From Candidatus Dojkabacteria bacterium (lineage in GTDB: Bacteria > Patescibacteriota > Dojkabacteria > J137), in assembly GCA_030950485.1 (NCBI GenBank), contig JAUZRK010000001.1:1-39997 (forward strand): DNA of 39,997 nucleotides, given 5' to 3'. Shown here in pieces: positions 1,098 through 5,278 of the stretch (within the stretch, counting starts at the first letter, position 1; the number at the start of each line of letters is the position of its first letter). Under the pieces are notes generated by a model. That model saw only the letters and a program-made list of their open reading frames with translations. It made no database searches and was not told where the DNA came from. The position numbers were made by a program, and so were the translations under genes.

Positions 1098-1176
1098 ACG
1101 GAATTATTATACTACTTTTATCTAAATTTGTCGGGTTTGTTTAGCATCTTACTTCATAACTTGGCGTACAAGTCTC

Positions 1177-1231
1177 AGTGCAGTCTCGAGTGATTTACGG
1201 CCGATAGGGAGTAAATTGTATCGAGAGATGG
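1177..1231 (+). repeat. Solo right end of the GIY-YIG-associated element
   Basis: cagtgcagtctcgagtgatttacggccgatagggagtaaattgtatcgagagatgg is near-identical to the right ends at ~1478-1533 and ~2175-2229. Confidence 0.8.
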
Positions 1232-1258
1232 AGGCGCGTTCACCTTCCTCGGCTCGTT

Positions 1259-1533
1259 CCATGTCTCGATACATTCTACTTCGCTCCGCTTCGTAGAACA
1301 CTCGGCACTCCACTTTGTTTGTAATTTAATACACTCCACTCTCTTCAGCTGGTGCAAGGTTGTACCTTGCTGCGAAACATTCCAAGAAAAGCTATTACCG
1401 TTTAGGGAGTACCCTCAGTTTGTTACCCCTTCCGGCTTAGCTTCGCTAAGCCACCTTCCCAAAAGGAAGATTGCCACCCAGTGCAGTCTCGAGTGATTTA
1501 CGACCGAAGGGAGTAAATTGTATCGAGAGATGG
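1259..1533 (+). repeat. MITE/REP-like element, copy 1 (imperfect terminal inverted repeats)
   Basis: Starts ccatgtctcgatacattctacttcgctccgcttcgtagaacactcg and ends cactcgagac-type sequence in inverted orientation (...gtatcgagagatgg). Nearly identical to 1951-2229. Internal hairpins gcaaggt/accttgc and ggcttagc/gctaagcc. Confidence 0.85.
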
Positions 1534-1622
1534 AGAGGCGGCCCCTTAAAAACTCTTTCATAATTCTTACTATCAAGATTTTTCATTAACTAGACTCACT
1601 AAAACAAAGATTATAATTCCTT

Positions 1623-1922
1623 ATGAAGCAACATAACTACTATGTCTACATCTTATTATGCTCTGATAACAGTCTATACGTAGGAATGACTAATGATTTA
1701 GATCGAAGGTTCTCAGAACATAATAATGGTTACTATGAAAACTCATATACATATTCTCGAAGGCCAGTAAAACTTATTTACTCGTCTCAGTTTAGTTATG
1801 TTCATGATGCAAAGAGTTATGAGAGTCAGATTAAGAAGTGGTCTAGAAATAAAAAACTAGCTTTAGTAATGAGAGATTGGGATACATTAGAGAGCTCTAG
1901 TAGAAAGAAATTTAAGAAATGA
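1623..1922 (+). CDS. Stand-alone GIY-YIG nuclease domain protein (UPF0213/YhbQ-like)
   Basis: 99 aa; YYVYILLCSDNSLYVGMTNDLDRRFSEHNNG matches the GIY-YIG pattern (YVY...YVG...R). TATAAT-like box at 1612-1617 directly upstream. Confidence 0.88.
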   Translation: MKQHNYYVYILLCSDNSLYVGMTNDLDRRFSEHNNGYYENSYTYSRRPVKLIYSSQFSYVHDAKSYESQIKKWSRNKKLALVMRDWDTLESSSRKKFKK

Positions 1923-1950
1923 TTTTGACTGAATCTTGCGAGACACATGC

Positions 1951-2229
1951 CCATGTCTCGATACATTCTACTTCGCTCCGCTTCGTAGAACACTCGACAC
2001 TCCACTTTGTTTGTAATTTAATACACTCCACTCTCTTCAGCTGGTGCAAGGTTGTACCTTGCTGCGAAACATTCCAAGAAAAGCTATTACCGTTTAGGGA
2101 GTGCCCCCAGTCTGTTACCCATTACGGCTTAGCTTCGCTAAGCCACCTTCCCAAAAGGAAGATTAACCCACTCCCAGTGCAGTCTCGAGTGGTTTACGAC
2201 CGAAGGGAGTAAATTGTATCGAGAGATGG
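1951..2229 (+). repeat. MITE/REP-like element, copy 2
   Basis: Direct repeat of 1259-1533 with a few substitutions and a 4-bp length difference, same ends. Confidence 0.85.
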
Positions 2230-2273
2230 AGAGATCGGGAGGCAATCACTTCGCTTACTTATATAAGAAAGTG

Positions 2274-2340: not shown

Positions 2341-5076
2341 TTACACAGCTGGCATTGCGTAGAATGCAGTTGTTTCTTCTTTGAATGCTCCTTCCCAAAT
2401 TCCTCCTGATTTGATTCTATCTCTTAGAATTGTTGCGTCAGCATCTCCTAATATATAGAAGTGTGTTTGACCAGTTCTTAGATTTAAGAATCTGTATACA
2501 GGATCAGCTCCATTTACAGCGTCATTGTAAGCACAGAATGCAACTGTTTCGTACTTGAATGGCCAACCTGCGTCAGCAATCTTAGTATCTAAAGCAGCTT
2601 TTTCTGTAGCTCCCTTAACGTAGAAGTGAATAGAACCATAAGTTGTATTTAGGTATCTGTAAACTTGCTCTGTATCTGTAGGACAAGTGTTATTTTCATA
2701 AACACCAGCTACAAATGCAACTGTTTCGTACTTGAATGGCCAGTTATCACTAGCGATTTTAGCGTCTAGTGCGTCTTTACCAGCTTCTCCTTGTACGTAG
2801 AAGTGTACGTCTCCTTGGTTTGTTTCTAAGTATCTGAAAACAGCTCCTGCTGGGTAATCAGTTCCTTGTACTACAAATTCTGGAGTAACAGCTAAATCAG
2901 ATCCTGATCCGTCATATTCAGTAACTGTGAATTTACAATCAGTTACATTTAATCCAGATGGTAAAGGATTAAGTTGTACAATATTTGCTCCCTCTACAGC
3001 CATGTAAGATGTAGCAGAACAATATGAATCAGCTTCAAAAGAAATAACACCAGCCTCAGTAGAAGTAAATCTTAATTCTAGAGAGAATGGATCAACTGAA
3101 GCACCAGTTACACTAGGATCAAAATCATCCTTAATTGTAAAGTTAGCTACAGCGATTCCGTTGCTAGTTGCGTTATCATCATTGCTGAAGTAATCATATG
3201 CTTCAAATGTACAATCGTATGTTCCTGCAGTTAAAGGATCAATGTAGAACATTGATGTTCCTGAAGGGAAATCAAATGTCTGAGCTCCTCCAACCTCACA
3301 AGAACCTACACTAACATTGAAATAACCAGCTTCGTTAGCAGTTACTGTAACCTTAATTGGGTTTGTAACTGTTCCTGAAGTAAAGTTAAAGTCAACTTCT
3401 GGACCGTAGTTGTCTACTTCCATTGTTGGTAATGATAAGAATGCTCCAGTATTACCTTGATTATCAACAGCAGCTACAGAACAATTAGAGAAAATGTCAT
3501 CAACATTTCCAGCTCCTTTTCCTGTATCAGCAGCACTGAAATCAATAGTTAATATTTGAGTTGGATCAAATGCAGTTAGTGATGATCCTCCAACGGTTGC
3601 AGTAACTCCAGCTACGTTACAAGAACCAGCTAGTTTTAATGTTGTTGGGAATACTACTGAACCTACATCATCGTTTGAATCAATTACTACAACAATAGTT
3701 TCATCAGTAACGTCATCTTGTTCAGGAGCCTCAACCATTGTTAGCATTGGTCCTACTGTGTCTTTTACTGAGAAATCAGAGAATAGAATTGAGTTACTTA
3801 CCTGTCCATCAGCATCTGTGATCTCTAATGAACAATTTTTGAAAGTAGCTCCATCAACTAAGTTTCTTAGAGTAACTTCATTTTGTCCATTGAAAGCTTG
3901 AGTTGGGTATGTAGTTAACACACCTGCTCCAGTTCCTCCAGTACACTCGAAGTTGATTAATCCAGATTCATTCGCTGTGAATGAGAATGCTGGGTTTGTA
4001 TCATTTTTAAAAGAAGAGAAATCACCTCCATTTACATGTGGAATATTTCCGTTACCATCAATAATTCTAGTAGCAGAAGCTGTAAGATCTACAGATCCTG
4101 TATAACCGAATTTATCTGTTACTGTTAATGTACAAGAGTTAACTGCATCATAAGTACCTGTAATTAGATTCTCAACTTCAACAGTTCTAACATAAGTCAT
4201 TGTTCCTGAGTTATAGTCAGCAGCTGTAAAGTAAGTATCTCTAATTGCACAAGTTCCTGTACCTAATCCTGCAACTGTTAGTTCTCCCATTGAAGTAGAA
4301 GAAACTGTAGCTGTAAGATCAACATCACCTACTGCAGGAGATGGGTTTGATAAACTTGTAACAGAAAGTACTGGTGATGTATCAGCAACAGTGAATTCAG
4401 AAATCTCAACTGTTGTTTCGTTCTCAGCTTGATCCTTGAATGTTACTGTACAATCTGAATAAATACCAGGTGTTAATGTATCGAATGCTACATCAACATC
4501 TAAGATTGTAGTTCCACCAGGAGCAGCTAAACTTGAAGTAGAAGGTGTATTCATATCACAAGCTCCTCCGAATGTAGCTGTTAAGCCAGCATTGAAAGAT
4601 CCTAGTAAAGAACCTTCTTCAACAATTTTAAGACCAACTATTGGTGAATTGTTATCAGTAATAGAATCGATAGGATTTACTTCTGTAACAATAGGTGCAG
4701 TTGTATCAACTTCGAAGTCAGTTAAGTCCAATAAAGAACTAAAAAGACCCTCAGAGTCAACAACAGCGATACTACAAGCAGTCATTGTTCCAGTTTCGTA
4801 CTCATCATCAGCTAAAGCATCAAATGTTACTACATTAGAACCAGCCACTGCATAGTCTAAATCTGAATCTAGACATGGACCGTGAAATACAACTAATCCT
4901 GCTTTATTACTACTGAATGTGAATTCAGGAGTACTATCTTTAGTTACGTTACCGTTAGATTCTCCAACAGTTGTAACCTCAGAGATTAGAGGTGCAGCTG
5001 CATTAACAGTTGTTAGTACCATCATTGGTGTTACTAACAATGCGAATGCTGCAACGAAAGAAAAAATCTTTCTCAT
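2341..5076 (-). CDS. Secreted multi-domain surface protein: about seven Ig-like repeats plus three C-terminal DUF5648-like repeats
   Basis: ORF 2341-5172; likely start at internal Met (5076 or 5082) giving signal peptide MRKIFSFVAAFALLVTPMMVLTTVNAAAP. C-terminus has VFRYLETNQGDVHFYV, VYRYLNTTYGSIHFYV, VYRFLNLRTGQTHFYI. Confidence 0.8.
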   Translation of the reverse strand: MRKIFSFVAAFALLVTPMMVLTTVNAAAPLISEVTTVGESNGNVTKDSTPEFTFSSNKAGLVVFHGPCLDSDLDYAVAGSNVVTFDALADDEYETGTMTACSIAVVDSEGLFSSLLDLTDFEVDTTAPIVTEVNPIDSITDNNSPIVGLKIVEEGSLLGSFNAGLTATFGGACDMNTPSTSSLAAPGGTTILDVDVAFDTLTPGIYSDCTVTFKDQAENETTVEISEFTVADTSPVLSVTSLSNPSPAVGDVDLTATVSSTSMGELTVAGLGTGTCAIRDTYFTAADYNSGTMTYVRTVEVENLITGTYDAVNSCTLTVTDKFGYTGSVDLTASATRIIDGNGNIPHVNGGDFSSFKNDTNPAFSFTANESGLINFECTGGTGAGVLTTYPTQAFNGQNEVTLRNLVDGATFKNCSLEITDADGQVSNSILFSDFSVKDTVGPMLTMVEAPEQDDVTDETIVVVIDSNDDVGSVVFPTTLKLAGSCNVAGVTATVGGSSLTAFDPTQILTIDFSAADTGKGAGNVDDIFSNCSVAAVDNQGNTGAFLSLPTMEVDNYGPEVDFNFTSGTVTNPIKVTVTANEAGYFNVSVGSCEVGGAQTFDFPSGTSMFYIDPLTAGTYDCTFEAYDYFSNDDNATSNGIAVANFTIKDDFDPSVTGASVDPFSLELRFTSTEAGVISFEADSYCSATSYMAVEGANIVQLNPLPSGLNVTDCKFTVTEYDGSGSDLAVTPEFVVQGTDYPAGAVFRYLETNQGDVHFYVQGEAGKDALDAKIASDNWPFKYETVAFVAGVYENNTCPTDTEQVYRYLNTTYGSIHFYVKGATEKAALDTKIADAGWPFKYETVAFCAYNDAVNGADPVYRFLNLRTGQTHFYILGDADATILRDRIKSGGIWEGAFKEETTAFYAMPAV

Positions 5077-5278
5077 ATGCATATTAAATAATATATAAAA
5101 TAAAAAAAATAAAAGGCATGTTGGAAGTATAAATACCAATTTAAATCCTAGATCTAAATTAGAAAGATACACTTACATGCAATTACAGATTATTAATTCA
5201 AAAATATGAATTAAATAACCTGCCCTTACGGCAAAATAAAAAAAACATTAAAGAACATTAAAACAACTAATAACTCTA

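Follow-up and report, generated by a model that had tools for sequence, protein, structure and literature searches.

The gene for a GIY-YIG nuclease near the start of the window, i.e., the whole 39,997-nt stretch of Candidatus Dojkabacteria DNA that was analysed, lies between two copies of a 277-bp repeat, and this arrangement raises the question of whether the enzyme and the repeats belong together and what the repeated unit is. A preliminary description of the locus had reported two direct copies of ~277 bp with imperfect inverted-repeat ends, a third, solo right end, a stand-alone GIY-YIG ORF of 99 aa, and no transposase, and each of these features was recovered (Table 1). The two copies share 97% identity over a block of 214 nt (1259-1472 and 1951-2164) and 98% identity over a block of 61 nt (1477-1537 and 2173-2233) in the repeat comparison within the window, with an overall identity of 96% by BLAST, and the ends of the units are mutually inverted (repeats I4, I5, and I10; 22-23 nt, 86-87% identity). 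No transposase adjoins the GIY-YIG gene.

Table 1. Features of the GIY-YIG locus and its repeats (positions in the window).
Feature	Position	Strand	Description and basis
Solo REP hairpin R0	1173-1233	+	Head to tail AGTGCAGTCTCGAGTG...TGTATCGAGAGATGG; 93% identity to the right end of the unit (BLAST); matches CTCGATACN{10,40}ACTCGA; DNA fold -8.2 kcal/mol, z -2.9
REP hairpin L1, left end of first 277-bp unit	1258-1314	-	Tail to head, stem TTCTAC/GTAGAA; inverted repeat of right end (I4); DNA fold shows the stem, with stability no greater than shuffles
First head-to-head REP dimer spacer	1315-1476		97% identity to 2007-2172; without long ORF
REP hairpin R1	1477-1537	+	Tail toward GIY-YIG gene; proposed left border of the cassette; repeat D3; genome pattern match; DNA fold -8.1 kcal/mol, z -2.8
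GIY-YIG nuclease, 99 aa	1623-1922	+	PF01541, 2.6e-18
REP hairpin L2	1950-2006	-	Tail toward GIY-YIG gene; proposed right border of the cassette; stop codon + 28 nt; repeat comparison; genome pattern match
Second head-to-head REP dimer spacer	2007-2172		Repeat comparison
REP hairpin R2, right end of second 277-bp unit	2173-2233	+	Repeat D3, 98% identity to R1; genome pattern match

Each end of the unit is itself an imperfect palindrome, TCTCGA-TACA-[ATTTAC]...[GTAAAT]-CAC-TCGAGA, so the repeated unit is a hairpin of ~50 nt, and the 277-bp unit is a dimer of two REP-like hairpins facing head-to-head across a spacer of ~165 nt. These hairpins have the form TCTCGATACA-stem-loop-stem'-CACTCGA, with stems ATTTAC/GTAAAT at the right ends and TTCTAC/GTAGAA at the left ends, and two of them (R1 and L2) bracket the GIY-YIG gene in inverted orientation. 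The single-strand DNA fold energies of the left-end hairpins are unimpressive (z about 0), and the co-variation of the stems is therefore the better evidence. The only Rfam match at the locus, BSnc120 (2196-2319, over the right REP), scored 26 bits against a gathering threshold of 114 and is probably due to chance, so a structured RNA was rejected. Further along the window (2341-5172, minus strand) lies a gene whose 943-aa product looks secreted and contains numerous Ig-like repeats, with three further repeats, of the VYR(Y/F)LN..T.HFY type, at its C-terminus.

The genome of the window (1.41 Mb in 30 contigs) was searched for the hairpin by pattern and by BLAST. The pattern CTCGATACN{10,40}ACTCGA gave 18 matches, corresponding to 17 hairpins and one doubtful short match, whereas the reversed pattern gave a single match; the hairpin is thus over-represented elsewhere in the genome, as the repeats of REP/RAYT systems are. 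The complete 277-bp unit, in contrast, has just two copies genome-wide, both at the window locus, and the dispersed element is the hairpin, mostly solo and with differing spacers. Other stems found in this genome include TTTTTC/GAAAAA, CCATAC/GTATGG, and ATCC/GGAT, which indicates compensated changes of the stem between conserved outer arms. The hairpins with the stem TTTTTC/GAAAAA form a subfamily (C2:27626, C6:55269, C6:61245, C10:21987, and C27:58856), none of which adjoins a GIY-YIG gene, and the second GIY-YIG gene of the genome (C18:56401, YhbQ-like) has no such repeats around it. No target-site duplication was identified.

These results bear on the proposal, made in the preliminary description, of a MITE-like family. 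It is hardly conceivable that an ordinary MITE, with terminal inverted repeats of ~56 bp and a lost transposase, accounts for the 277-bp units, despite the two near-identical copies with imperfect inverted ends, as the full unit occurs at the window locus only, hairpins recur elsewhere with different spacers, and related nucleases in other phyla are flanked by the same hairpin type without the 277-bp spacer. A plain MITE of a DDE transposon was rejected as well, since only the hairpins and not the whole unit are dispersed and no target-site duplication was seen. The part of the proposal that stands is that of non-autonomous repeats partnered with a GIY-YIG gene; the part that falls is the 277-bp MITE with long terminal inverted repeats, the two copies being a local duplication of the hairpin dimer. 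The locus is probably a REP-nuclease cassette in which the GIY-YIG protein acts as the dedicated partner of the flanking REPs, cutting them so that repair spreads them.

The window protein belongs to the GIY-YIG superfamily, having the PF01541 domain together with the tyrosines of GIY and YIG, the glycine, and the active-site arginine and glutamate, and its catalytic-type residues Y9, Y19, G21, R29, H33, and E67 are conserved across 48 homologues. The AlphaFold2 model (pLDDT 90) predicts a bare GIY-YIG domain, with a fold closest to the UPF0213 proteins and then to SLX1 (TM about 0.6). No match to PF01797, the Y1 HUH tyrosine transposase, was found on this protein. A group I intron endonuclease (NCBIfam match far under the cut-off) and a defence-system protein (no PADLOC match) were considered and rejected. 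In the REP-linked nuclease clades, the protein is extended at its C-terminus and has motifs there that are specific to each clade, namely KKFK, ECRNATHS, FSKNY, and NPNWxDL. Some GIY-YIG proteins end in translated REP sequence, such as STSSD, ASTGSA, or GLDSARPD (L057, L061, L087, L088, L107, L108, L111, L116, L122, and L124), and public annotations therefore include repeat-derived tails.

A scan of 85,462 species genomes yielded 80 close homologues, mostly from Bacteroidota but also from Dojkabacteria, Peribacteria, Falkowbacteria, Spirochaetales, Nitrospirae, and UBP2. The pairing of nuclease and repeat recurs in at least five bacterial phyla. The window genome shares its family with two Ca. 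Dojkabacteria records (G004/L046 and G001/L121), and no congener was present among the 96 relatives listed. Palindromic repeats flank nearly all 80 homologues on both sides, with sequences that differ between homologues. When the best local match between the 250-nt left and right flanks was scored (threshold of at least 30), 85% of the 80 GIY-YIG genes had matching repeats on both sides, compared with 2.4% of a control set of 253 further ORFs in those loci, and the inverted flank scores of the two sets differed strongly (Mann-Whitney p = 1e-26). Some of the failures have the repeat within the coding end, giving the translated tails GLDSARPD and STSSD. The nearest REPs face their tails inward (41 of 52 upstream and 39 of 53 downstream), so the gene is flanked by two inverted palindromic repeats as in REP/RAYT loci, and, again as in those systems, some solo copies are remote from any GIY-YIG gene. 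Within the window protein's own class of GIY-YIG genes, the association is present in the window-like and NPNWxDL-type members, and none was found in about 20 members of the housekeeping, YhbQ-like subfamily.

The type of repeat follows the clade of the nuclease. Repeats were typed by motif as A (CTCGATACA..CACTCGA), B (CTTCGACNNGCTCAG), C (TCTCGACTNCGCTCGA), and D (TTCGGC..GCTCACC), with fewer repeats of types E, F, G, H, and I. On a protein tree of 98 columns, from which repeat-derived tails had been removed, repeat type, assigned by eye in some cases, required 14 changes, compared with a mean of 45.8 and a minimum of 39 in 300 shuffles that ignore the shared ancestry of neighbouring loci. 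For the Flavobacteriia subset, 4 changes were needed against a shuffle minimum of 17. The place of the window protein was not fixed by this tree, and type A accompanies KKFK-tailed proteins in both Bacteroidota and Dojkabacteria, the window included. Two nuclease clades, each with its corresponding repeat type, occur in Winogradskyella, Maribacter, Mucilaginibacter, Eudoraea, and Allomuricauda. In addition, among 82 unique type-A REPs, 5-6 of the outer 6 stem pairs are kept in 94%, compared with 26% for mismatched halves. The protein and its repeat thus co-evolve while stem pairing is maintained, as described for REP/RAYT.

The number of type-A REPs was also higher in genomes with the type-A nuclease, with a median of 14 against 0 in genomes without it (50 genomes; p = 1.7e-6), and the difference held within Flavobacteriia only (p = 4e-4). 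Genomes with this nuclease carried 4-53 type-A repeats, the single zero being G106, which uses the variant CTCGATACG; counts of up to 53 per genome in Bacteroidota are far below those of RAYT REPs, which typically reach hundreds. In four genomes (G117, G121, G124, and G130), 9-22 type-A REPs were present although no complete type-A nuclease was, and G124 has a truncated type-A nuclease gene at a contig edge, beside type-A repeats. Another exception, a Maribacter MAG (G118), holds a decayed type-A GIY-YIG gene with stop codons between two intact type-A REPs (L203:1376-1710). For type C, the difference in copy number was modest (median 4.5 against 1.5, p = 0.0015), in a comparison whose control genomes may hold other type-C nucleases. 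Mobilisation of the REPs by a RAYT or another Y1/HUH transposase encoded elsewhere, with an incidental GIY-YIG linkage, is highly improbable. Y1_Tnp matches do occur in 36 of 51 genomes, and the window genome has three, but these three are weak and lie 27 kb or more from the nearest type-A REP, and there is no Y1_Tnp match in the REP-A-rich genomes G096 (30 REPs), G097, G120, G121, G128-G130, and G132. As several repeat-rich genomes have no Y1_Tnp gene, the repeats do not need RAYT enzymes.

Copies of the cassette at non-orthologous positions share the REP-GIY-REP segment and nothing outside it. For one pair of loci (L047 and L050), the identity ends exactly at TGTCA and TGACA, and the units of Eudoraea (L122) and Maribacter (L124) are 90% identical in unrelated surroundings. 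An intergenic site of Chryseobacterium contains the GIY-YIG gene with 9-12 REPs in 4 species and neither of them in 12 species, and a further Chryseobacterium species has an 87%-identical protein with 4 repeats at another site. The preliminary description had tied its proposal to association with GIY-YIG genes and to presence/absence polymorphism, and both were found. Two Sinorhizobium loci have flanks that are 94% identical, and in the one whose GIY-YIG gene is not intact, a single composite palindrome is kept that has heads at both ends. Such an allele might predate insertion or be the scar of a deletion; since it holds REP remnants, it cannot be taken for a clean pre-insertion site. The evidence on movement is confined to presence/absence and non-orthologous positions.

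Other arrangements were observed around these genes. Chryseobacterium takakiae (L106:3780-4850) has a ~145-bp tandem array in which head-to-head and tail-to-tail REPs alternate around the GIY-YIG gene, and similar arrays are present in L194-L196. S. meliloti Ak57 (L218:900-1100) carries the truncated 3' end of a second GIY-YIG gene between REPs, just upstream of the intact gene, which suggests repeated insertion or duplication at one site.

The same loci could also be read as the traces of a homing-type parasite, in which case the REPs would spread by other means and the GIY-YIG gene would repeatedly enter the spacer of tail-to-tail dimers, cutting there. GIY-YIG domains are common in homing endonucleases, gene-less tail-to-tail REP pairs exist (window 1173-1314; C2:41171-41333), and the composite REP of the GIY-less Sinorhizobium allele would fit. 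Homing parasitism is nevertheless unlikely, as REP number is higher where the matching nuclease is present, the Chryseobacterium site without the gene is always without REPs, no single REP is split by the gene, and the protein has no separate DNA-binding domain of the kind usual in homing GIY-YIG enzymes.

A domesticated or autoregulatory pair is another possibility, in which the protein would bind REP hairpins in DNA or mRNA, e.g., those acting as terminator or operator of its own gene, and the pair would serve regulation or the clearance of hairpins and not mobility. REPs are known to influence transcripts (PMC3733652), they often abut or overlap the stop codon, as in the tails STSSD and GLDSARPD, and specific binding would account for the co-variation too. 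However, the upstream REPs are no less regular than the downstream ones, the complete REP-bounded unit reappears in other genera and at sites that are not orthologous, among them the suf operon, and decayed nuclease copies persist between REPs (L203), so that a purely regulatory pairing is quite unlikely.

The REP-nuclease cassette extends to a sister subfamily of GIY-YIG proteins with the motif NPNWxDL, which was searched for on plasmids and chromids. CGTC REPs were defined by Di Nocera, De Gregorio & Rocco (2013; PMC3733652), who found no tyrosine transposase flanked by them, a result that also speaks against mobilisation by RAYT, and who concluded that they have no dedicated transposase. 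NPNWxDL genes were found in genera named in that study, and matching CGTC REPs lie on both sides at 14 of 17 loci, compared with 4 of 127 neighbouring genes (Fisher p = 2e-13; some of the loci are close relatives and not all are independent). Such repeats surround NPNWxDL genes in Rhizobium, Sinorhizobium, Azospirillum, Neisseria, and Sphingobium, as in the cassette CGTCATCCTCGGGCTTGACCCGAGGATCCA-gene-TGGATCCTCGGGTCAAGCCCGAGGATGACG, and by inspection they have the head (CGTC, TGTC, or CCTC), stem of 8-9 bp, loop of 4-5 nt, and CCA-type tail of CGTC REPs. The window REPs differ, with the head AGTGCAGT, an inner stem of 6-7 bp, and a longer loop. In two alphaproteobacterial orders, represented by Azospirillum lipoferum (L231:14863-15481) and Shinella sp. 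(L225), sufB and sufC are separated by a REP-GIY-REP cassette. Among the PLSDB records searched, several 'plasmids' are chromosome-sized (2.2-4.9 Mb; NZ_CP119140.1, NZ_AP026896.1, NZ_CP069303.1, and CP090106.1), and CP090106.1, named 'pSymB', carries gltA, lpx, and rpsB and looks like a chromosome.

The association between nuclease and REPs is well supported: they are linked on both sides and in inverted orientation, repeat type co-varies with nuclease clade, REP number depends on the nuclease, and both are jointly present or absent at an orthologous site. We infer from this that the REPs are bound and cut by the nuclease and spread as a result. The proposed cassette has the order [head-REP-tail] - GIY-YIG gene - [tail-REP-head], and the protein would recognise the conserved arms around the variable stem, which in the window family are CTCGATACA ... 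CACTCGA. Most likely, it would nick or cut REPs extruded as hairpins or cruciforms, and repair would then copy or move the REP-bounded segment to new sites; insertion would depend on repair by the host, since GIY-YIG enzymes are not known for end joining. The cassette would represent the autonomous form, and solo REPs and REP dimers its non-autonomous progeny. There is a real chance that the pair is a new kind of mobile element, and the chances are about even for the wider claim that single-domain GIY-YIG nucleases, acting on extruded hairpins, spread REPs and thereby define a phylum-spanning class of mobile elements that had gone unrecognised.

REPs are among the commonest repeats of bacterial genomes, and the pairing suggests that a large repeat class without a known mobilising enzyme has an enzyme partner that had so far escaped notice. 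In the open-access literature, a search that left preprints and most subscription journals aside, no paper linking GIY-YIG genes to REPs was found. If the cassette works as proposed, it would supply the missing enzyme of the CGTC REP superfamily (Neisseria dRS3-type, rickettsial, and rhizobial palindromes), add a nuclease not known for transposition to the mobility enzymes, and imply DNA transposition chemistry without DDE, HUH, or serine/tyrosine recombinase catalysis. The long-standing question of the origin of REPs would become directly testable, and thousands of genes annotated as 'GIY-YIG nuclease family' would gain a function if their product is that enzyme. Even if the protein only binds and maintains REPs, the repeat type would be predictable from the protein sequence, and the pairing is easily testable in cultured Flavobacteriia and rhizobia.

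Several known systems resemble the cassette in part. GIY-YIG homing endonucleases of the I-TevI type share the catalytic domain and the logic of a selfish gene, but the genes described here are not set in introns or inteins, their product lacks a separate DNA-binding domain, and intact repeats, not a split target, stand on both sides. SLX1, a eukaryotic structure-specific endonuclease of branched DNA that has a RING-type domain and SLX4 as its partner, resembles the window protein in predicted fold only, although its action on branched DNA concerns the type of structure that an extruded REP would offer. The nearest solved relatives in sequence and fold are the UPF0213/YhbQ-like proteins (PDB 1zg2 and 1ywl), with a single GIY-YIG domain of ~95 aa; the YhbQ-like members of the same class are not REP-associated, however, and the C-terminal extension is a feature of the REP-linked clades. 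With regard to CGTC REPs (PMC3733652), the NPNWxDL genes lie between textbook CGTC-stem-loop-stem-CCA repeats and the Bacteroidota repeats begin with (C/T)GTC, whereas the window REPs, with their diverged head and longer loop, are related in layout and not by definition. The closest parallel is provided by REP/RAYT, REPtrons, and REPINs (PMC2817692, PMC3116915), which likewise have a small gene between inverted palindromic repeats dispersed in the genome, co-variation of repeat and protein, compensatory stem changes, head-to-head and tail-to-tail dimers, and clusters around the gene; the REP/RAYT-like layout guessed at in the preliminary description is strongly supported by the association, co-variation, copy-number, and presence/absence tests. 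The repeats described here nevertheless do not carry the GTAG tag, their tags being by inspection CGTC/TGTC or diverged, and the enzyme is a GIY-YIG nuclease (PF01541), whereas RAYT is a Y1 HUH transposase (PF01797). Because this defining transposase is absent, the pair works like REP/RAYT but is not one, and a REP/RAYT-like partnership with a GIY-YIG nuclease in place of the HUH transposase is the best reading of the locus.
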